From an uncultured Bacilli bacterium (lineage in GTDB: Bacteria; Bacillota_I; Bacilli_A; RF39; UBA660), in NCBI GenBank assembly GCA_947623845.1, contig CANQHM010000036.1, positions 1 through 12,089 on the forward strand: DNA of 12,089 bases. The letters are read 5' to 3'. A program made the position numbers and the translations under genes. The notes under the pieces were generated by a model, which did not search any database, was not told the origin of the DNA, and saw nothing but the letters and a program-made list of their open reading frames with translations. This document shows positions 489 to 12,089 of this stretch, in pieces. The stretch's first letter is position 1. Each line of letters opens with the position of its first letter.

Positions 489-518
489 TTGACTTTTTCT
501 CAGGGGGTAGGGTATAAT
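489..518 (+). promoter_or_regulatory. Sigma-A-like promoter for the surface-protein operon
   Basis: A TTGACT -35 box at 489-494 and a perfect TATAAT -10 box at 513-518 are separated by 18 bases; the spacer holds an unusual G-rich run (CAGGGGG). Transcription would start near 525, giving an untranslated leader of about 140 bases before the ATG at 669. The leader can form alternative weak hairpins (561-566 with 593-598, or 554-558 with 563-566), but I see no known riboswitch in it. Confidence 0.8.
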
Positions 519-668
519 GTTGTTATGATGAGGAGATTAGATTTAAAATTGCTCATGGGTTACCATTTATTTCTAATGAAATAAAAAGAGTTATGGTATA
601 TGATAATAGCATAATTTCTTATTGTGGTTATTTTTTGCATATTATGAAGTGAAAGGAGTAAAGATAAT

Positions 669-2084
669 ATGAAAGAATGGTTAGAAGAAAATTATAAAAA
701 ATGCTTAATAGTATTAGCATGTTTAATCGTAATATTAATAATTATATTTTTCTTACTAAGAAAACCTACTTATCTAATTACTTTTGATAGTAATGGAGGA
801 AGTGTGGTATCAAGTGTAAAAGTAAAGAAAGGAGATAAAATACCCGAACCTGAAGAACCAACTAGAGAAGGATATACTTTTATTGGCTGGGAATATGAAG
901 ATGTCTTATATGACTTTAGTAAACCTGTAACTAAAAAGATGACTTTAAAAGCTTATTGGACAGGTAATGCTAGTGGTATAGTTTTAGAGAGTACTACTCT
1001 TACATTAAAACCTGAAGATGAAGAATCTTTAAAAATAACTATTAATGGGGATGAACTTACTTTAGAAGATCTAGAATTTATCTCTAGTGATGAAAGTATT
1101 GCTACTATAGATAGTAATGGTAAAATAACTGCTATTAAAGATGGTAAAGTAACTATTACTATAAAGAGTAAAGATGGTAAATATAGTGTAACATGTGAAG
1201 TAGTAGTAGCAAGTAAAGTAGTAGAAGTAGAAAGTGTAAGTATAACTGGTAATAATAAAGTTACCGTAGGAAATACTATAAAACTTACTGCTACTGTAAA
1301 ACCTAATGATGCTACTAATAAAAATGTTACTTGGAAGAGTAGTAATACTAAAATTGCTATAGTAGATAAAAATGGTAATGTTAGAGGATTAAATGCTGGT
1401 ACTGTAACTATTACAGCGACTTCTGATAATGGTAAAGAATCTAGTAAAACTATCACGGTTGAAGCTAAGAAAGAAGAACCAAAAGAAGAAACCCCAACAA
1501 CTCCATCTAATCCTACTCCAAGTGATCCAACACCTAGTACTCCAACAACCCCAAGTGAACCAGAACCACCTAAAGATGTTGCTGTTACTGGTGTAACATT
1601 AACTGGAGGAAATAGTGTAAATGTCGGAAAAACTGTTAATTTAGCAGTTAATATAACTCCAGGTAATGCTACTAATAAAGACTTTACATGTACTAGTAGT
1701 GATCAAACTAAAGCAACGGTAACTAAATCAGGAACAAATTGTGTAGTCACTGGTAAAGATGATGGAGATGTAACAATTACAGTTACTACGGATGATGGTC
1801 ATCATACCGCTACTCATACAGTAACTGTAAACTCAGTATTTGTTATGACTTTAATACCCGAAGATATGGGAGCAGGCATGGGTGTAACTCGTTATAAATA
1901 TACTATAACAAAAAATGGAACACCAATCACCTTTATTACTGATGCTAATTTTACAAGTCTAACACTAAATAATATTAGTATATTTGACCCTGATACAGTA
2001 TCTTCTGCAGAAGTTAAGGATAGTAATACAGCATCACTAGTGTATAAGGGCAAAACGATAAATGTTACTGTAATAAAAAGATAG
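669..2084 (+). CDS. Membrane-anchored InlB-repeat and Big_2 (bacterial Ig-like) surface protein
   Basis: The 471-residue protein starts with a short charged cytoplasmic tail and one membrane segment (about residues 12-30), with no cleavage site, so it should be an N-terminally anchored protein facing outward. Residues 35-98 form an InlB B-repeat/Listeria-Bacteroides repeat (ITFDSNGG, GYTFIGW, AYW). Residues 103-180 and 187-266 are Big_2-like Ig folds (SSDESIATIDSNGKITAIKDG; VTWKSSN with TVTITATSDNG). A Pro/Thr/Ser-rich stalk spans 267-302, and a third Ig-like fold spans 303-388. The tail 389-471 is unassigned. The third fold has Cys341 where domain B has Trp, plus Cys358, a possible disulfide; Cys176 is unpaired. 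AAAGGAG at 652-658 supports the start. It is the first gene of a three-gene operon. Binding or adhesion is the family expectation; the ligand is unknown. Confidence 0.85.
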   Translation: MKEWLEENYKKCLIVLACLIVILIIIFFLLRKPTYLITFDSNGGSVVSSVKVKKGDKIPEPEEPTREGYTFIGWEYEDVLYDFSKPVTKKMTLKAYWTGNASGIVLESTTLTLKPEDEESLKITINGDELTLEDLEFISSDESIATIDSNGKITAIKDGKVTITIKSKDGKYSVTCEVVVASKVVEVESVSITGNNKVTVGNTIKLTATVKPNDATNKNVTWKSSNTKIAIVDKNGNVRGLNAGTVTITATSDNGKESSKTITVEAKKEEPKEETPTTPSNPTPSDPTPSTPTTPSEPEPPKDVAVTGVTLTGGNSVNVGKTVNLAVNITPGNATNKDFTCTSSDQTKATVTKSGTNCVVTGKDDGDVTITVTTDDGHHTATHTVTVNSVFVMTLIPEDMGAGMGVTRYKYTITKNGTPITFITDANFTSLTLNNISIFDPDTVSSAEVKDSNTASLVYKGKTINVTVIKR

Positions 2085-2103
2085 AAGAAAGGAATGATAG
2101 AAT

Positions 2104-5100
2104 ATGAAAAAAAGGCTAAATAAAATATTATTAGCAGTGTTCTTAGCATTTTTTGTATCAAATATCAATACTAATGCTAAAAAAATGACATATCAAGAAT
2201 TAGGACAAGAAGTATTAAGTAAAGAACAATATGCAGGTTTTGTGTATGTTGTAGGTGAATATGCATTTACTTCTCGTTATCAAGGATTTAATATCCAAGA
2301 TGTAATGTTAGCATCAGCAAATAGCATTACTGTAGACGATATTAATTCTGATACTACTACGGCTACAATAAAAGATAAAACCAAAGAAATGACAATCTAC
2401 CATATAAGAAGAACTAATAATGGTTGGGAAATTGCTGATAATTTAGTTGGAAATGGTACAGCATTCAATAGTAATGCTAAAGTAGATATTAAATATATTG
2501 ATTATAAGTATATTGCTGAAGAAAGTAAAATCGACAACTTACTTGGAGAAATTAATGATTATACTGATAAACTAGGTGCTAATAGTGATTTCCAAAATAG
2601 TAACTATAGTAAAGATTTATCAATTAATAAAATTAATAATAATAGGTATGAACTAAAAGGTTTATTATTAAAGAAACCTGCTGTAAGCGGATTTAACGAT
2701 AATCATACTGGATATTATATGGCATTTGCTTTAAATATCCCTGAATTGAATGATAATAGTACTTTAACTATAAGTGATGGTAAATATACTAAAACATTTA
2801 ACAGTGGTGACTTCAAAACTGATAGCAATAATGGTACAGCTGTTATATGGCCGGTAGATCCTGAGAGTAAAACAAATACGATAACTATTACTTTAGATCT
2901 TGATGGCACTGGAAATGAATATGGAACAACTAAATATGAAATTATTTGGGATGAAGAATTAATTTTTCAAGAAGATAGTAAAGCATCTATAAATTCAGAT
3001 TTAACTGAAGCAGAAACCCAAGAAGTAAAAGAAAAACTTGATTATGAAAAAACTGAAGAAGATACATATAGTATAAGTGGGCCTATTGATAAAACTTATA
3101 CTTTAAGTGGAGATGTTGTACTTCAAAATGCTCCTGATAAACATTTTGCTGCAACTGATCCTAAAGGATACTATGCTTTAATAAAAATTACTGATGATGA
3201 ATTTATACCAGGTAAGACTACTATTGTATTACCTTGTAAGAGTTGTACTGATGCAGATTCTAAGAAAACAATTAAACTTGAAGATAATTCCTTATCATTC
3301 CTAATGGCACTAGATAAAGAAGCCGGAAATAAAACTTTTGAAATAACCATTGATTTAGATGGTGAAGAAGATGCATACCTACCAGTTTCTTATACTATTG
3401 ATTATAATGGAGTTAACTTTAAACAAAGAACTGAAGTTAGTATGTCTATAAGTAGTGAGGGTGTTAATAGAGATTATGGTTATAGTGCTGATCCATCTAG
3501 CATAAAATTAGATAATAATGTTTTAAGTGACACGGTTCCATTAGATGAAGGAGTTACTAATACTAGCTTAGGAAATGGAGAAAATTTAACCAAATATTAT
3601 GTTCCAATTAAATTAGATATTACTGGTAAAAATAGTAGTACCAAAATATATGTAAATGATCATGAAACTACGGATACAACATTATTATTACCAGTATCTA
3701 AAAGTAAACAAAAAACTGAAAAATTTACTATCAAAGTAGATAATGGTGAAGGATATATTCCATATGAAGTTAGTATTTCTTATGAGGATTTATTATTCCA
3801 AGAAGCAAGTACTGTAATGGAAATTAAAACAATTACTAGTGGAGTATCATTTACTACAAATTGGGATTTAAGTAAACAAGATAGTGAATTAATTCTAGAT
3901 GGTACTGGCAATGAAAGAACTTTAAAAGGTAAAGTAAAAGAACAAAAAGTAGATGGTGAAAAGAAATTCTATTTTGCTTTCCAAGTTATCACTTCTAAGA
4001 CTAATAATCCTACAATCAAGGTAAATGCTAGTGCAGATAACGGGAAAGTAATAGAGCAAAAAGAAGATACTAGTTTCCCAAACAAAAAAATTAGTTATTT
4101 ATATGAACTTCCAGAAACTTTTGATGATGAAAAAGAAATTACAGTTACAGTTGATTTAGATGGTGATGGGAATGCCTATGCACCAAAAACATATACAATT
4201 AAATTAAACCCTAGTGATGCTAATTTAGTTCATTTATATACAATTTCATTCGAATATATAGAAGGATATGAAGATATAAATGTCTATGAAGATGAAACTC
4301 CAAAAGTAAATAAACCAACTAATACTGATTATGTAAAATTTGCTCATTGGATTGATACTACAGAAAAATCTCAAGTTGATTTAAGTAAGCCAATAAATAA
4401 AGATGTTACTGTAAGCCCATATTATGATGTTTATTTAAGTGATTACATTAATAGTTATTATGGTGATGGCAAATTTAAAAGCCAAAATATGATAGTTAAA
4501 AATAGTGATAGTACATACACTTTTGAAATAACTAAAGAAAAATTAGATTTAAATAATTTAAGTGAAACCAAATTAGAAGATGCTTTTAAAGGAATTCTTA
4601 CAGACTTAAAACTTCCATCTATTACTGTTAATGAAGAGATTGTAACTGATGCTAATAATGTTATAACAAACTTAACAAAAGATATGGGATCTTACCATAC
4701 ATATGATGATTTATTAAATGCTGAAAATAAAAATATTACATTAAAAGTTAATGGTACTGGAGATTCATATAAACTACATGATGGAGATAAAGAAGAATAT
4801 ACGTTTAATTTTACCTCTAATTTTAGAGTAGTAAAAAATAAAGCGGATTTAGCAAAGGCTTTAACGGAAAACGTTGCTAGAATAATTATTGATGATAATA
4901 TAACAGATTTAGATGCAGCTTTAGAAGCAAAAAAAGATGTAACTATTGAAGGTAATGGTCATACATTAACATCTACTGCTACTGATGCTGTATTAAAGGT
5001 TAGCGCAAATGTAACAATTAATAATTTAAAACTTAATGATAACGCTGCTCAAGAACTAATTCATCAAGAGGATGGAACATTAAATATTGATACTTTAGAA

Positions 5101-6594
5101 GTTGTTAATATTAAAAAAGGCGATAATGGAAATGCATATGCCGCAATAGATGTTGAAAGTGGAACTCTAACTGTTAGTAAGCTTACATTCGCTGATGAAA
5201 CTTATGATAACCCTGCTGTTAGAGCTAAAGAAGGCGCTAGCATTACATTAAATAGAACACCAAAAGGAACCGCTTCTCCAATTACTTATCAAGAAATTTT
5301 AACATATGAAGAAAGAAAAAAATTATCCCCAGATAAGGAAGTTTATGATGGTGATTTAAAACAAGATAAAGCTGGTTATCAATATAAACATTATTACAAT
5401 AATTCTTCAAACGAAGATAAATGGTATAAAATAACTTTCCAAGGAGATATGGGTGTTGTTAGAGCCATGATAAATTGGAATAGATATATAGTTAAAGGCG
5501 AAAGTTTTACTGAAAGTACCTTACCAGATACTGTAGATAAAATTACAAAATATAACAATGGTGGATATAATTATACAGTTGGACAAATATGCCTTCGTGA
5601 AGGATATTCAAATACTTGTAAATCAAAAATTATTGAATTTGATGCTCCAACTGGCGATACTACATATTATATTGGATTATCAGGAGAACTTAATGCTAAT
5701 GCAAAAGAAGTAGCAAATGCTCAAGCTTTATATAATGCTTTAAATGATGCGGGAGTTAATAATATCATTGTTACAGGAGATATAGATTTAACTACTGCTC
5801 CAGATTTATTCCCTAATGGTGTGCTAACAATTACTAAAGATAATCTAGATTTAGAATCAAAAGTTAATATGGGAGAATATAAAGGTTCTATTACTGGTAA
5901 AATAGTAATCAATGCTCAAAATGTATCTATTGAAAGATTATCTATTAAAGGAAAAAATACTGGTGAACAAGCTGAAGGAATTATTACTGTTAAACAATCT
6001 GGCTTCAACTTATTCCAAGGTGAAATCGCGGATGTAGAAGGAAACTTTAAAAATGCTATAGTATTTGATTTAGCATCTCCTAAAGCAAGTGTATCATTTA
6101 TAAAATTTACTAGTACGAATTTAAAATCATTCATTGAATTTAAACAAATTATTGAAGCAGAAGCAGACGATGGTTTTGAAACTTCTATAGTAGGTAATGA
6201 CTTCTTTGGAAGTACAAGCACTAAAGAATTTGTTGTACTAGATAATTTAGATAATACATCTCATGCTATGGATTTAGCGTTTAAACAATCTAGCTTTAAA
6301 TTTGCTAATGAAGATGATTATGCACTTATGATTAAATCTACACCTACAGGTAGTAATCCAGTTAATTTCCACTTTGGAATTCCATCTACTAAAAAGGATA
6401 GTGCAGTTGATAAAGTAAGAATTGGAATAACTGTTACAGCGGATAAGTATGATGCTTCTTCTATAACATTTAATGCAGAAAAGAAACTTGATAATTTAGA
6501 GGTTCATTATATAGAAGGTACTGAAGATAAAGGTGTTAAAAATCCACATGGTGATACATATAATGCAAAATTAGAGATTAAACCTTCAATTTAA
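2104..6594 (+). CDS. Giant secreted repeat/beta-helix surface protein
   Basis: The 1496-residue protein has a signal peptide (about residues 1-25, cleavage after NTNA). Residues 183-702 hold four tandem beta-rich modules of roughly 110-130 residues. Each ends in a strand-loop-strand such as DLDGTGNEY (265-273), DLDGEEDAY (417-425), VDNGEGYIPYEV (545-556) and DLDGDGNAY (684-692); three of these loops resemble acidic calcium-binding loops. Residues 710-775 look like an InlB-type repeat. Regions near 905-1060 and 1200-1350 read like right-handed beta-helix coils (KADLAKALTENVARIIIDDN; VTIEGNGHTL). A second InlB-like stretch with Cys1163 and Cys1172 lies between them. The only other cysteines are Cys378 and Cys381 (CKSC). 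No LPXTG motif, C-terminal membrane segment or known wall-binding domain is seen. AGAAAGGA at 2086-2093 supports the start, 19 bases after the previous stop. A role as adhesin or matrix protein is inferred; no catalytic motif is visible. Confidence 0.85.
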   Translation: MKKRLNKILLAVFLAFFVSNINTNAKKMTYQELGQEVLSKEQYAGFVYVVGEYAFTSRYQGFNIQDVMLASANSITVDDINSDTTTATIKDKTKEMTIYHIRRTNNGWEIADNLVGNGTAFNSNAKVDIKYIDYKYIAEESKIDNLLGEINDYTDKLGANSDFQNSNYSKDLSINKINNNRYELKGLLLKKPAVSGFNDNHTGYYMAFALNIPELNDNSTLTISDGKYTKTFNSGDFKTDSNNGTAVIWPVDPESKTNTITITLDLDGTGNEYGTTKYEIIWDEELIFQEDSKASINSDLTEAETQEVKEKLDYEKTEEDTYSISGPIDKTYTLSGDVVLQNAPDKHFAATDPKGYYALIKITDDEFIPGKTTIVLPCKSCTDADSKKTIKLEDNSLSFLMALDKEAGNKTFEITIDLDGEEDAYLPVSYTIDYNGVNFKQRTEVSMSISSEGVNRDYGYSADPSSIKLDNNVLSDTVPLDEGVTNTSLGNGENLTKYYVPIKLDITGKNSSTKIYVNDHETTDTTLLLPVSKSKQKTEKFTIKVDNGEGYIPYEVSISYEDLLFQEASTVMEIKTITSGVSFTTNWDLSKQDSELILDGTGNERTLKGKVKEQKVDGEKKFYFAFQVITSKTNNPTIKVNASADNGKVIEQKEDTSFPNKKISYLYELPETFDDEKEITVTVDLDGDGNAYAPKTYTIKLNPSDANLVHLYTISFEYIEGYEDINVYEDETPKVNKPTNTDYVKFAHWIDTTEKSQVDLSKPINKDVTVSPYYDVYLSDYINSYYGDGKFKSQNMIVKNSDSTYTFEITKEKLDLNNLSETKLEDAFKGILTDLKLPSITVNEEIVTDANNVITNLTKDMGSYHTYDDLLNAENKNITLKVNGTGDSYKLHDGDKEEYTFNFTSNFRVVKNKADLAKALTENVARIIIDDNITDLDAALEAKKDVTIEGNGHTLTSTATDAVLKVSANVTINNLKLNDNAAQELIHQEDGTLNIDTLEVVNIKKGDNGNAYAAIDVESGTLTVSKLTFADETYDNPAVRAKEGASITLNRTPKGTASPITYQEILTYEERKKLSPDKEVYDGDLKQDKAGYQYKHYYNNSSNEDKWYKITFQGDMGVVRAMINWNRYIVKGESFTESTLPDTVDKITKYNNGGYNYTVGQICLREGYSNTCKSKIIEFDAPTGDTTYYIGLSGELNANAKEVANAQALYNALNDAGVNNIIVTGDIDLTTAPDLFPNGVLTITKDNLDLESKVNMGEYKGSITGKIVINAQNVSIERLSIKGKNTGEQAEGIITVKQSGFNLFQGEIADVEGNFKNAIVFDLASPKASVSFIKFTSTNLKSFIEFKQIIEAEADDGFETSIVGNDFFGSTSTKEFVVLDNLDNTSHAMDLAFKQSSFKFANEDDYALMIKSTPTGSNPVNFHFGIPSTKKDSAVDKVRIGITVTADKYDASSITFNAEKKLDNLEVHYIEGTEDKGVKNPHGDTYNAKLEIKPSI
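2650..4209 (+). repeat. Four tandem beta modules within the giant secreted protein
   Basis: Residues 183-702 of the encoded protein contain four related modules. Shared landmarks are an early aromatic strand (GYYMAFAL, GYYALIKI, KYYVPIKL, KFYFAFQV), a late strand ending in DLDG or DNGEG, then Y-x-P/x-x-Y-x-I. In the first three modules this is followed by L/V-x-FQ/K and a new linker. Divergence is high at both protein and DNA level, so the duplication is old. I do not recognise the module as a named family. Confidence 0.7.
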
Positions 6595-6597
6595 AGT

Positions 6598-7131
6598 ATG
6601 AGAAAAATAGTTTATATATTCTTGATATGTTTATTACTACCTATGAATGCTTATGCAACCATAGGTAGTAATTCTTCTATAAAAGACGTTAATGTATATA
6701 TATTTAAAAATGAATGTGATAAATGTATCCAAGAAGAAAAATGGTTAGATAGTATTTATACTAAATATGCTAGATTAAATATAGTTAAAGTTAATGATAT
6801 AAAAAAATATGAAGATATTTTAAAAAAATTAAAAGTACCTAATAATAAATATCCGCTATTAATTATTGGATCTGATTACTTTATTGGGTTTAATGATAAA
6901 ATTAAAGAAGAAGTAGAGAATGCTATTGAAGCTTACTCTAAAGAAGATAGTTATTGTGATATTTTTGATACCAAATTAAGTAATAAAGAATGTTTAGATC
7001 TTAATAAAAAAATATATACCAAACCTAAAAGTATTATGGTTCCTGTAATAGCAATAAGTACTTTGGGTATTATTAGTATACTTTTTAAATTAATTTTAGA
7101 ATATAGAAAAAACAAAAATAAACTAGGTTAA
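6598..7131 (+). CDS. Exported, membrane-anchored thioredoxin-like protein with CxxC
   Basis: The 177-residue protein has a signal peptide (about 1-20, AYA before the mature end), a thioredoxin-like core and a C-terminal membrane anchor (about 146-167) followed by a basic tail. The redox core therefore lies outside the membrane. Cys40-Asp-Lys-Cys43 sits after a beta strand (VNVYIFKNE) and starts a helix, as in thioredoxin folds. KYPLLIIG places Pro86 at the expected cis-proline position, followed by the usual D-Y-F-I-G-F strand turn. A second pair, Cys120 and Cys132, lies before the anchor and could relay electrons or be structural. The start is 3 bases after the upstream stop with no good ribosome binding site, so translation is probably coupled. 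Placement after two cysteine-containing surface proteins suggests disulfide formation, isomerisation or reduction on them; this is inference. Homology to a specific named Dsb, Res or Tlp family is not claimed. Confidence 0.75.
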   Translation: MRKIVYIFLICLLLPMNAYATIGSNSSIKDVNVYIFKNECDKCIQEEKWLDSIYTKYARLNIVKVNDIKKYEDILKKLKVPNNKYPLLIIGSDYFIGFNDKIKEEVENAIEAYSKEDSYCDIFDTKLSNKECLDLNKKIYTKPKSIMVPVIAISTLGIISILFKLILEYRKNKNKLG

Positions 7132-7158
7132 GCATAGCCAATGCAATCTAGTTTTTTT
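7120..7158 (+). terminator. Terminator overlapping the end of the thioredoxin-like gene
   Basis: AAACTAG (7120-7126, inside the coding sequence) pairs with CTAGTTT (7148-7154). An inner GCAT/ATGC stem (7132-7135 with 7141-7144) stacks within, and seven Ts follow at 7152-7158. The TAA stop at 7129-7131 lies between the outer and inner 5' arms. It closes the three-gene surface operon. Confidence 0.8.
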
Positions 7159-7161
7159 CTT

Positions 7162-7248
7162 TTCATCTCGTCAAAATGTTAAAAAATAGGGGTATTTATG
7201 TCGTCAAAACGTTAAAAAATACTATGTTTTATCTTGTCAAAACGTTAA
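7162..7248 (+). repeat. Three direct repeats with exact 33-bp period upstream of the ATPase gene
   Basis: The core GTCAAAAYGTTAA begins at 7170, 7203 and 7236, exactly 33 bases apart. Upstream flanks are also similar (TTCATCTC, TTTATGTC, TTTATCTT), and copies 1 and 2 share a following A-tract ending ATA. Each full unit is thus about 27 conserved bases plus 6 variable bases (GGGGTA, CTATGT). Copy 3 diverges after the core, where the promoter -10 region begins. The core contains the palindrome AACGTT in copies 2 and 3. The phased spacing of about three helical turns suggests a binding array for a DNA-binding protein; the binding protein is unknown. Confidence 0.8.
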
Positions 7249-7286: not shown

Positions 7287-8636
7287 ATGAATAATAATCC
7301 TTATTTTAAAAGAAAAATTTATAATAAACTAGTAGAATGGAAAGAAAATAGTAATGGTAAAACTGCTCTATTAATAGAAGGAGCAAGACGTATAGGAAAA
7401 AGTACTATTGCTCTTGAATTTGCCAAAAACGAGTATGAAGCCTACATATTAATAGATTTTAATATAGTTCCCGAAGAAATAAAAAACTTATTTATCCATG
7501 AAAGAAGCGATATTGACTTAATATTACAAAAATTACAATCATTTTATGGAAAAGTTTTACCTGTAAGAAAATCCTTAATTATATTTGATGAAGTCCAATT
7601 CTGTCCTGAAGCTAGATCCCTAATAAAATACTTAGTAGCTGATGGAAGATATGATTACCTAGAAACTGGTTCTTTAATATCTATCAAAAAGAATGTTGAA
7701 AATATAATAATACCTTCTGAAGAAAAAAAGATTAATATGTACCCCCTTGATTTTGAAGAATTTTTATGGGCGATGGGTGATACCACTACCATACCATTTT
7801 TAAAACAATGTTATGATAATAAAACTAAAGTTGATATAGCTCATAATAGAATTATGAAAGACTTTAGAACTTATGTCCTTGTAGGAGGAATGCCTCAAGC
7901 TATAGTAGAATATATAAATACTAAAAGTTTTGATAAAGTAGATGAAATAAAAAGAAATATATTATCACTATACCATGAAGATATAAATAAATATGGAGAT
8001 AATAGTAAAAAAATAATTAGAATGTATGATAATATCCCAAGTCAATTATCTAATGGAAGTAAAAAATATAAATTATCATCAATCGATAAAACTGCTAGAA
8101 ATATCAATTATAAAAATAAATTAACTTGGTTAGATGAAGCTAAAATTATCAATCTATGTAATAATGTTACCGACCCAAATATTGGTCTAGATTTAACTAA
8201 AGATGAAAATAGTTATAAATGTTATCAATCAGATGTCGGACTACTAGTTACCCAAGCATTTATAAATAAACCATTTGTAGATAATGAAATATATAAAGCT
8301 ATTTTATTTGATAAGTTAAATGTAAATGAAGGAATGATAATGGAAAATTATGTTGCTCAAACTCTTAAATCCAAAGGTTACGAATTATTTTATTATTCCA
8401 AAAATGATAATGACGTAATAGAAAATAATATGGAAGTAGATTTCCTAATAGTACAAGATAAAAAATTAAATCCTATTGAAGTAAAATCAGGAGATTATAA
8501 AAAACATACATCTATTGATCGATTTAAAGATAAATATAAGAAAAATGTTGGTACAAGATATGTCCTTCATCCTAAAGACTTAAAAGTTGAAGGAGATATA
8601 GTTTATTTACCATTATATATGGCTATCTTCTTGTAA
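7287..8636 (+). CDS. AAA_14/DUF4143 family ATPase with PD-(D/E)xK-like C-terminus
   Basis: The 449-residue cytoplasmic protein has a P-loop GARRIGKST (residues 32-40), Walker B LIIFDE (97-102) and the family's ETGS (126-129) and YPLDFEEFL (152-160) segments, all typical of AAA_14. VLVGGMPQA (197-205) marks the start of the DUF4143 region. Near the C-terminus, an ENYV helix (353-356), Asp385 in EVDFLIV and Glu398-Val-Lys400 make up an apparently complete PD-(D/E)xK-like nuclease signature. Length is normal for the family and no lesion is visible. These proteins are widespread, often multi-copy in gut bacteria, and their role is not established, so nuclease activity is only suggested. AGAAGGA (7274-7280) supports the start. 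It stands alone between two terminators and behind the 33-bp repeats, so it looks like an independently regulated single-gene unit. Confidence 0.9.
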   Translation: MNNNPYFKRKIYNKLVEWKENSNGKTALLIEGARRIGKSTIALEFAKNEYEAYILIDFNIVPEEIKNLFIHERSDIDLILQKLQSFYGKVLPVRKSLIIFDEVQFCPEARSLIKYLVADGRYDYLETGSLISIKKNVENIIIPSEEKKINMYPLDFEEFLWAMGDTTTIPFLKQCYDNKTKVDIAHNRIMKDFRTYVLVGGMPQAIVEYINTKSFDKVDEIKRNILSLYHEDINKYGDNSKKIIRMYDNIPSQLSNGSKKYKLSSIDKTARNINYKNKLTWLDEAKIINLCNNVTDPNIGLDLTKDENSYKCYQSDVGLLVTQAFINKPFVDNEIYKAILFDKLNVNEGMIMENYVAQTLKSKGYELFYYSKNDNDVIENNMEVDFLIVQDKKLNPIEVKSGDYKKHTSIDRFKDKYKKNVGTRYVLHPKDLKVEGDIVYLPLYMAIFL

Positions 8637-9591: not shown

Positions 9592-9622
9592 AAAAAAAGA
9601 AAACTTCTTCTTAAAGTTTTCT
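9592..9622 (-). terminator. Terminator of the MMPL and phage-family gene operon
   Basis: On the minus strand, AGAAAACTT (9622 to 9614) pairs perfectly with AAGTTTTCT (9606 to 9598) over a seven-base loop and is followed by a run of Ts (9598-9592). The stop codon of the 131-residue gene (9611-9613) sits in the loop, so the 5' arm is coding sequence. Confidence 0.85.
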
Positions 9623-10006
9623 CTCTAATTTATTATTATTTAATAACGAGCTAAGTCTTTGGGTATCTTCTTCATCACTATAACCATCATATTTAGGAGC
9701 ATGTTCTAATTCTTGAATATTAAATAAATCCCAATATTTTAATTTAAAATGAAAAGTTGTTACTCCTTTTGGGGTCTTAATCCCTGCTACAAAGTCGCCG
9801 TTAAACATCGGGTCATTCACCTCATCATAATGTTTCTTACTTTTAAAAGAAAGAGTAGGGTAAGCTTGACAAACTAATGCAAACAAAATCATTCTTTGAT
9901 AATATAACATTTCAAATGTATGATGAGTATCACTTATTCCTTTGGTTGAATAACCATCTTTTTTTATTGTTTCAATTAAATTATTTATGATTTCAATGTA
10001 ACCCAT
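9611..10006 (-). CDS. Phage-associated small protein family (131 aa), function unknown
   Basis: The protein resembles a family of small soluble proteins that I know mainly from tailed-phage genomes. Its landmarks appear in order: ISDTHHTFEMLY (24-35, usually SDGYHTFxELY), FKSKKHYDE (54-62), DFVAGIKTPKG (71-81), TTFHFKLKYWDLF (83-95, usually TYHxPxxYWD) and APKYDGYSDEEDTQRL (103-118, usually APxWDGHTxxDVxxRL). The role of the family is not known to me. There is no signal peptide or membrane segment. It starts 1 base after the stop of the MMPL gene, and its AAAGGAG (10013-10019) lies inside the 3' end of that gene, so the pair is translationally coupled. No other phage gene is visible, which suggests a captured single gene or the edge of a decayed element. 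Confidence 0.8.
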   Translation of the reverse strand: MGYIEIINNLIETIKKDGYSTKGISDTHHTFEMLYYQRMILFALVCQAYPTLSFKSKKHYDEVNDPMFNGDFVAGIKTPKGVTTFHFKLKYWDLFNIQELEHAPKYDGYSDEEDTQRLSSLLNNNKLERKL

Positions 10007-10007
10007 A

Positions 10008-12089
10008 TTAATCTCCTTTTTTCTTTTTTACAATGAATCTATCACATACTGCTAAAATAGAAGGTAAGAAGACTAAAATCAAGATTGTTGAACAAATCGT
10101 CCCCTCGGAAATAGTTTTACAAATCTTCGCTGCAATAGCAGAAGTAAATGAAGCAATAATCAAAGTAACAATTATTAAAATAGAACTTGATGTTAAAATA
10201 GTATGAATAGAAGTATTATAAGATTTTTTAATCGATTCTTTAATATCTAAAGTTTTTCGGTGTTCTAAGTAATAAGAAGTAAATAATATCGCATAATCTA
10301 TTGTTGCTCCCATTAAAATACTTTGAACAATCAATATCGCAATAAAGTATACATTCTCACCTGCAACCCCTAAAATTCCCATTGTTAAGTAAACGGCACA
10401 TTGAATAGTTAAAACTAAAATAATAGGAATAATTAAGGATTTAAATGTCATTGCTACTACGATAAATATCGCCACCATGGTAATTATTGTAATTAAATTT
10501 AATTCATCATCAAAAGTTTTACTCATTTCATAAGCCATTGGTGAATCCCCAATAACATAAACTTCATCTAAATCTTTTTCTAAACTATCTTTCGTCTTTT
10601 TAACTAAGTTAAAAGTATCTTTTCCCTCTAAATCTAAAGTTGTATTTAAAACTACCCGTGAATAATTCTTAGCTACTAGTAATTCTTTAGCAGCACTAAT
10701 TGTATCTTTTGCTTCAAGAATCTTATTTCGCATATCATCATCAATATATTCCGTAAATCTTTTATCTAATAAGATATCATTATTTAAATAATTAACAAAC
10801 TCTTCTAAAGTTAAAGTCCAACTATTATCATAAGCTTTATCACTACCTAAATAGATATATAAAACCTCTAAAGTATCTTTTTCAACATCATTAGAAAGCG
10901 TATTAGTTATGGCAAATATTTCTTCGGCATTATACAAAGTATTATTTAAAGTATTGTCCATTATCTTATTAACTGTTGTTAACTTACTAATTTGATCTTT
11001 ACTAAAATTACTAGCATATGCTGGATTTTTAATAACATCATTAAGCAAGAAATTTATAAAGTCTTTTAAAGATATCATATAATTTTTATTAACATATAAA
11101 GAATCATATAAACCATATAATAAACTAGTATCATCTTTATTTAATCCTAAAAGGGTAGCAAGACTTGTACTATCATAATTAGTATTATTTATGGTACTTT
11201 CCATTATAACATTAAGAAGATTTAAGTTATCTAACATATCTTTAGAAAGATTATTCTTTAAAACTTCATCATTTTGATGAGCAAGTAAAAAGGTAACAAA
11301 TTCTTGAGGTGTTAAAGTAAGATTAGTATTACTTATTAAATAAAGAGTATAAAGATTTTGCGTCATACTTTTATCTAAATTAATTATCGTAGCTAGTTCT
11401 TCATAATTAAAAGTAAGATTATTTTTAGTACTATCCATAATTGTTAGTAATAAATTTAATTTTGCTAAAGTAGCTTCATCTAAACTAGGTTTTAACATAT
11501 AATGCTCTTTATTATCTAAAAGGAATTTAGTTAATTCATAAGGTGTGATAGTTTGTTTACCGGATTGTTCGATAGAACTTTTAAGAGAAATAATTAAGTC
11601 CATTTGCAATTTATCTTTTCCAAATAACGGAGCAATTTCAGTACTCGTCATTTCTTTATCAAAAATCTCTGGATTACTAAATTTTGCTAACATTCGTAAA
11701 TTAGTAATGGTATCCGATGTAAAACTATTAGCATAAGAAGGATCCATGACTACATTATCAAGAACAAAATTAGCAAAATCATTAAGTGTAAGGGTTAAAG
11801 ATGGTGTTTGTAAAGATAAATAATAAGTATATAAATCACTTACGGTTTGAGCATCGATTCCTAGAAGAGTAGCAATTTCTTCACTCGTCATTTTCTTAGT
11901 AATCGTCTCCGTATTAACAAACTTCGTCATCATTGCTAATTTTTCTTTATTCGCATCATTAATTCGTCCATTATATTTATTATTAGGTAAAACATCTTTA
12001 TTCATAAATGTTGTAAATTCTTGTAAAGTAAGTTTTTGAGTATTATGTTTGGAACGATAATAAATTAATAAGTCATTAATATCACTAGC
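10008..12089 (-). CDS. MMPL/RND-type membrane protein with large repeat-bearing loop, N-terminal part outside window
   Basis: The frame is open to the window edge, so the gene is partial: an ATG at 12005 lies inside a repeat and is not the start. Counting from the edge, residues 1-440 form a soluble, presumably extracytoplasmic region of six helical repeats of about 80 residues. Residues 440-525 form a mixed alpha/beta domain. Five membrane segments follow (about 529-549, 552-574, 580-600, 630-651 and 664-683), then a basic KKKKGD tail. GATIDYAILFTSYYLEHR (594-611) is the MMPL-type motif at the end of a membrane helix. This matches the C-terminal half of MMPL/RND exporters, which move lipids or other hydrophobic substrates by proton coupling; the substrate here is unknown. 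The first membrane half should lie beyond the right edge. The gene is co-transcribed and coupled with the 131-residue phage-family gene. Confidence 0.85.
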   Translation of the reverse strand, partial: ASDINDLLIYYRSKHNTQKLTLQEFTTFMNKDVLPNNKYNGRINDANKEKLAMMTKFVNTETITKKMTSEEIATLLGIDAQTVSDLYTYYLSLQTPSLTLTLNDFANFVLDNVVMDPSYANSFTSDTITNLRMLAKFSNPEIFDKEMTSTEIAPLFGKDKLQMDLIISLKSSIEQSGKQTITPYELTKFLLDNKEHYMLKPSLDEATLAKLNLLLTIMDSTKNNLTFNYEELATIINLDKSMTQNLYTLYLISNTNLTLTPQEFVTFLLAHQNDEVLKNNLSKDMLDNLNLLNVIMESTINNTNYDSTSLATLLGLNKDDTSLLYGLYDSLYVNKNYMISLKDFINFLLNDVIKNPAYASNFSKDQISKLTTVNKIMDNTLNNTLYNAEEIFAITNTLSNDVEKDTLEVLYIYLGSDKAYDNSWTLTLEEFVNYLNNDILLDKRFTEYIDDDMRNKILEAKDTISAAKELLVAKNYSRVVLNTTLDLEGKDTFNLVKKTKDSLEKDLDEVYVIGDSPMAYEMSKTFDDELNLITIITMVAIFIVVAMTFKSLIIPIILVLTIQCAVYLTMGILGVAGENVYFIAILIVQSILMGATIDYAILFTSYYLEHRKTLDIKESIKKSYNTSIHTILTSSSILIIVTLIIASFTSAIAAKICKTISEGTICSTILILVFLPSILAVCDRFIVKKKKGD
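10013..10019 (-). promoter_or_regulatory. Ribosome binding site inside the MMPL 3' end
   Basis: AAAGGAG, six bases before the ATG at 10006, is also the Lys-Lys-Gly-Asp-stop end of the MMPL gene. Ribosomes finishing that gene reach the next start directly. Confidence 0.8.
10770..12089 (-). repeat. Six tandem ~80-residue helical repeats encoded in the MMPL gene
   Basis: The repeat anchor is T/S-L-x-E/D-F-x-x-F-L followed by D-V-L/I, seen as LTLQEFTTFM, LTLNDFANFV, ITPYELTKFL, LTPQEFVTFL, ISLKDFINFL and LTLEEFVNYL at about residues 25, 105, 186, 264, 344 and 431 counted from the window edge (spacings 80, 81, 78, 80 and 87). Between anchors, each unit has an IMDxTxNN-like helix, an ExLAxLLGLDK-like helix and an LYxLYL helix. 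The first copy is cut by the window edge, so more copies may exist. Confidence 0.8.

Follow-up and report, generated by a model that had tools for sequence, protein, structure and literature searches.

A recurring three-gene cassette in uncultured Bacilli links a giant secreted protein to a thioredoxin-fold membrane protein

Layout of the locus

The window, the whole 12,089-nucleotide stretch of DNA analysed here, comes from an uncultured Bacilli bacterium. It contains three plus-strand genes, for an anchor protein, a giant secreted protein and a small thioredoxin-like protein that we call TrxL, separated by gaps of only 19 and 3 nt. The first-pass annotation had placed these genes between one promoter and one terminator, and this description was borne out: a promoter-like site precedes the first gene, and a hairpin followed by a T run closes the third (Table 1). 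A simple scan had not picked up the hairpin. Rfam gave no match at gathering thresholds. By this layout, the three genes form a real operon.

Table 1. Features of the anchor/giant/TrxL operon in the window
Feature	Position	Strand	Remarks
Promoter-like site, TTGACT-18-TATAAT	489..518	+	11/12 matches; 27/2000 intergenic shuffles reach 11
Gene 1, anchor protein	669..2084	+	N-terminal TM, Flg_new repeat, three Big_2 stretches
Gene 2, secreted giant, 1496 aa	2104..6594	+	Signal, N-terminal domain, Ig-like repeats, beta-helix-like part
Giant N-terminal domain, about residues 26-160	2179..2583	+	Conserved in giant alignment; putative docking module
Giant Cys378/Cys381	3235..3246	+	Close Cys pair in Ig-like repeat
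Giant Cys1163/Cys1172	5590..5619	+	
Gene 3, TrxL, 177 aa	6598..7131	+	Signal, thioredoxin fold, C-terminal TM, basic tail
TrxL CxxC (CDKC), residues 40-43	6715..6726	+	CxxC in 30/36 of clade
TrxL Cys120 and Cys132	6955..6993	+	36/36 in clade, 6/26 outside
Terminator hairpin, then T run	7120..7154	+	z -4.0; overlaps gene 3 stop codon

As had been noted from the sequence at first sight, the giant lacks an anchor: it contains no TM segment, and its 60 C-terminal residues hold no sorting signal, so it does not belong with the sortase-anchored LPXTG proteins. Sortase genes are present in 29 of 30 genomes searched. The strand pattern of the giant is compatible with a beta-helix, and the Pectate_lyase_5 profile matched above its cut-off in one of six members of the giant family (P0010). 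Foldseek returned Ig and cadherin arrays, with TM-scores over the query of 0.07-0.14 among the 50 matches listed; these say no more than that the protein is a string of beta-sandwiches. The C-termini of the giants differ greatly between relatives. A common C-terminal end, WH/WW..(S)TGA/S..Y.E, is seen in L128, L130, L132, L167, L168, L172, L178 and L191 and is absent from the window giant; perhaps it serves as a signal for attachment or sorting.

TrxL has the beta-alpha-beta-alpha-beta-beta-alpha core and the cis-proline loop of the thioredoxin fold, as judged by AF2 secondary structure and PDB comparison; Foldseek alone gave no match with E <= 1e-3. The cis-proline, Pro86, is kept in 36/36 TrxL. 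Hydrophobic segments are present at both the N- and C-terminal ends in 32 of 33 TrxL tested, a topology that would turn the thioredoxin domain outward. The window protein carries an oxidoreductase-type CxxC and a single C-terminal TM segment, with no multi-TM redox domain of the kind that marks a Trx-CcdA or DsbD conduit. Its order of signal, thioredoxin domain and TM, with no TPR match in Pfam, also separates it from CnoX, which we take to be cytosolic.

Several other features lie in the window. Between the terminator and the AAA_14/DUF4143 gene, positions 7170-7248 hold three copies of GTCAAAAYGTTAA at an exact 33-nt spacing; this operator-like triplet was found in 0/200 shuffles and 0/216 fetched loci. 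The AAA_14/DUF4143 protein itself (7287-8636) matches the PADLOC candidate defence family PDC-S01 at 5e-110. A WDGH-domain protein (9611-10006) is a strong match to phrog_3392, a phage family of unknown function. The window copy of an MMPL-type ORF (10008-12005; 665 aa) may be truncated or be missing its N-terminal half, since L128 encodes an apparent MMPL protein of 1197 aa. A 109-aa ORF (73-402) with no Pfam, NCBIfam or PHROG match is perhaps the end of a longer protein. A phage origin of the cassette was considered and rejected, as the PHROG matches of gene 1 are to Ig domains and the neighbours include TrmB and genes that resemble polA, gyrA/gyrB and uvrB by eye.

Recurrence and distribution of the cassette

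Does this layout recur? In 86 fetched stretches and the window, a giant is followed by TrxL at 29 loci, and all three genes stand in order at 20. The layout described in the first-pass annotation is thus a recurring unit. Its surroundings vary: counting the nearest gene of at least 120 aa without a profile match, the next downstream gene belongs to 22 unrelated families in 22/22 comparable loci and the next upstream gene to 14 families in 15 loci, although a polA-like gene one position further out is common to L122 and L131. The cassette is kept while its flanks change, and therefore selection, rather than inherited synteny, holds the genes together. Unlinked relatives, which had been named in advance as evidence against such a unit, were met with once, in genome G122, which has its TrxL (L133) on one contig and its giant (L176) on another.

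TrxL lies downstream of 26 of the 43 giants that have a stop codon and enough sequence, and the other 17 have none. Its presence follows the giant body, since it stands after 26/36 giants with a body match at E < 1e-30 and after 0/7 of the others (p 6e-4). Therefore, TrxL is tied to the body of the giant and not to the anchor. It is not obligatory, because no TrxL adjoins 10 of the 36 strong-body giants whose downstream sequence is long enough.

Within the searches made, the cassette is limited to one family of uncultured Bacilli. Whole-genome searches of this family were centred on the MAG Lapin-028, whose TrmB is 94% identical to that of the window and whose name (lapin, rabbit) suggests a source in rabbit gut. 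Among 145 family genomes, the TrxL clade was found in 11, strong giants in 15 and both in 10 (Fisher 4e-11, from counts compiled by hand from separate profile searches). Matches to the TrxL profile occurred in 7/19 genomes reached via the loci and in 102/145 family genomes, mostly to more distant thioredoxins. The giant N-terminal domain matched in 53/386 family genomes (37 at E < 1e-10) and in 9/395 class-drawn genomes, all nine already in the family draws. Close relatives in the protein collection were few (8 TrxL and 6 giants). A direct search of genome contigs and viral contigs with the TrxL alignment found no relatives; of these two scans, the one of genome contigs missed distant relatives that the whole-genome searches recovered. 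Literature searches, made largely among openly available papers, showed no paper on the cassette.

What holds the giant at the cell? A gene of the gene 1 kind lies within 300 nt upstream of 37/42 giants that have a start and enough sequence. At L191 (genome G108) the two are naturally fused in a single 1680-residue protein, which begins like gene 1 (TM, Flg_new and one Big_2) and continues into a giant body without the giant signal. The start of the giant N-terminal domain is missing from this protein, whose profile match runs from position 62. No TrxL lies beside the fusion gene, the Trx-CcdA profile had no match in G108, and G108 is also not among the matched genomes in the 145-genome TrxL search, which together make one case from incomplete MAGs. 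At L178, two giants precede a signal-plus-TM protein and a sortase, and no TrxL adjoins them. Single cases each, L178 and L191 fit a tethering role for gene 1. The suggestion that the first protein may tether the giant gains from both the 37/42 adjacency and the fusion, and on these sequence patterns we favour it. A lipobox-like signal, a hydrophobic run and then [GSA]C within the first 60 residues, occurs in 21/37 anchor proteins (for example L123:14865-16313 and L132:16135-17493); by eye, the window protein has none.

Loss of CxxC in TrxL and the cysteines of the giants

The 36 TrxL rows compared comprise 28 loci with an adjacent giant match, window included, and eight others: L119 and L139, which lie beside large proteins without a giant-profile match; P0002, P0005 and P0007, where linkage is presumed from longest contigs of equal length; and P0003, P0004 and P0006, rows without known context. 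L163, cut by its contig end, was excluded from the cysteine counts and the tree. With the cysteine columns left out, the tree places the TrxL of the operons and L133 on one branch (37 rows, support 100/99); support for its sister group is only 85/0.

CxxC is missing from six of the 36 TrxL (L122, L123, L128, L130, L131 and L172), and the tree requires at least five changes, which we read as losses. L123 and L172 have a shifted C-x6-C, and the other four have neither motif. Cys120, Cys132 and Pro86, by contrast, are retained in all 36, these six included. All 26 homologues outside the operon keep CxxC, in the CxHC form in 22/26 versus 0/36 inside. Between L122 and L131, both without CxxC, dN is 0.12 and dS 0.59, which suggests that purifying selection acted on TrxL after the loss. 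The retention of CxxC in 30/36 nonetheless argues that most lineages benefit from the motif.

Cysteine is scarce in the giants: the 21 complete ones beside TrxL have 2.24 per 1000, compared with 9.99 for 577 other ORFs. A close cysteine pair is nevertheless present in 26/29 giants beside TrxL. The giants without one, in L125 (one cysteine), L160 (none) and L181, all stand beside CxxC-bearing TrxL, and the six CxxC-less TrxL all adjoin giants with a close pair. Because of these mismatches, the presence of CxxC and that of giant disulfides are uncoupled, in both directions. At L160, where TrxL keeps CKDC, the anchor has one mature cysteine (176) and another (32) where its TM segment ends.

These patterns bear on the idea, put forward with the first description of the locus, that the product of the third gene oxidises or repairs those of the other two. 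The loss of CxxC in six TrxL beside Cys-paired giants speaks against it, as does L160, where a giant without cysteines and a persisting CxxC, a combination named beforehand as contrary evidence, are found together; the L125 giant has one cysteine. We consider the redox reading of TrxL weak; a redox role could still operate in the 30/36 that keep CxxC. As for possible redox partners, VKOR was found in 0/30 genomes searched, and near-full-length Trx-CcdA matches in 8/30, six of them strong. The idea that CxxC depends on a Trx-CcdA partner was rejected, there being no clear association: only G112 of the six genomes with CxxC-less TrxL has one, in MAGs that are incomplete.

A proposed role for TrxL and its alternatives

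How might the three proteins work together? The explanation we favour, tentatively and a little short of an even chance, is an anchored surface-assembly cassette in which TrxL is a thioredoxin-fold chaperone or holdfast and its CxxC is optional. Gene 1 would encode a membrane anchor with an extracellular stalk of Flg_new and Big_2 units that keeps the giant at the cell surface membrane, probably via the giant N-terminal domain. TrxL would be a type I membrane protein with its thioredoxin-fold domain outside, where the retained thioredoxin groove could bind the emerging body of the giant. CxxC chemistry would be an extra, lost in several lineages. Since the redox site has repeatedly been lost while the gene was retained, TrxL probably helps by holding or folding the giant and not mainly by forming disulfides. 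Counting against a chaperone, CxxC is found in more TrxL than expected if it were functionless, and most giants do have their close cysteine pair.

An alternative that we think unlikely but take seriously is that TrxL is a dedicated thiol-disulfide enzyme, which makes, isomerises or reduces the paired cysteines of the giant as MdbA and TsdA do for Actinobacteria pilins, the CxxC-less cases leaning on other extracytoplasmic thioredoxins of the genome. The frequency of CxxC favours such an enzyme, as do the paired state of the few cysteines left in giants that are otherwise so poor in them (2.2 vs 10.0 per 1000) and the many possible CxHC substitutes in these genomes. However, it would have to accommodate both kinds of mismatch, CxxC beside giants with no close pair and pairs beside TrxL without CxxC, as well as the absence of the relatives' CxHC from the clade and of VKOR from the genomes searched.

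It is improbable, in our judgement, that TrxL acts on the envelope redox state or on a different surface protein and stands in the operon only so that its expression matches that of the giant. The persistence of TrxL beside the Cys-free giant of L160 and its unlinked presence in G122 would suit such a target, but TrxL tracks the giant body rather than the anchor or the short relatives, and five losses of CxxC are unexpected for a general envelope enzyme. We regard it as likewise improbable that TrxL is a second membrane anchor, acting on the C-terminal part of a giant held at both ends. The C-terminal TM and basic tail, the conserved pair of hydrophobic segments, the lack of an anchor in the giant and the L191 fusion without adjacent TrxL are compatible with this arrangement; the 17 giants that have no TrxL and the great differences among giant C-termini argue against it.

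A more specific form of the chaperone-or-holdfast reading, which we regard as possible but doubtful, makes TrxL a dedicated extracytoplasmic pseudo-thioredoxin: an oxidoreductase taken into a surface-protein cassette, where it became a membrane-anchored chaperone or holdfast for one client and repeatedly shed its redox chemistry, within a sortase-independent display built of an anchor plus a docked giant. If true, very large proteins would be displayed without sortase in uncultured gut Bacilli, and nature would offer a series of catalytic and dead thioredoxins serving the same kind of partner. Such a series would permit a direct test of client roles of the thioredoxin fold beyond disulfide exchange.

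Precedents exist for parts of both the chaperone and the redox readings. CnoX/YbbN is a Trx-fold family in which some members have CXXC and others have lost it and are holdases, the SXXC members having another conserved cysteine outside the active site (PMC6282202). CnoX is a precedent for one fold with and without CXXC, as in TrxL; it has a TPR domain, whereas TrxL has none, is extracytoplasmic and membrane-anchored, and goes with a single partner gene. The Actinobacteria proteins MdbA and TsdA are membrane-tethered, thioredoxin-like proteins outside the cell membrane that assist surface proteins (PMC9974433). They are precedents for the redox alternative. Both depend on CxxC and act on many exported proteins, whereas TrxL loses CxxC in places and belongs to one cassette. 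LPXTG/sortase-anchored proteins are likewise large, repeat-bearing and adhesin-like, but the giant has no C-terminal TM and its proposed anchor is a separate protein.

Where might TrxL have come from? The same bacteria encode Trx proteins of about 400 residues with a CcdA-like membrane part, whose genes adjoin an apparent cysteine desulfurase gene and a small thioredoxin (names by eye). Their Trx part is homologous to TrxL, and the Cys120/132 pair is present in 3/6 compared. They keep CxHC and membrane cysteines, whereas the window TrxL has one TM helix. L139 is intermediate: its TrxL, from the genome whose TrmB is nearest to that of the window, lies beside another large repeat protein and has a CcdA-like membrane part without membrane cysteines. 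Because L139 keeps this part, an origin of TrxL from a Trx-CcdA protein fits the sequences, though the sister group of the clade has a support of only 85/0 in the tree. At L211:4032-5174, a further Trx that carries a CcdA-like membrane part has no cysteines other than those of CPHC, and it does not lie beside a giant.
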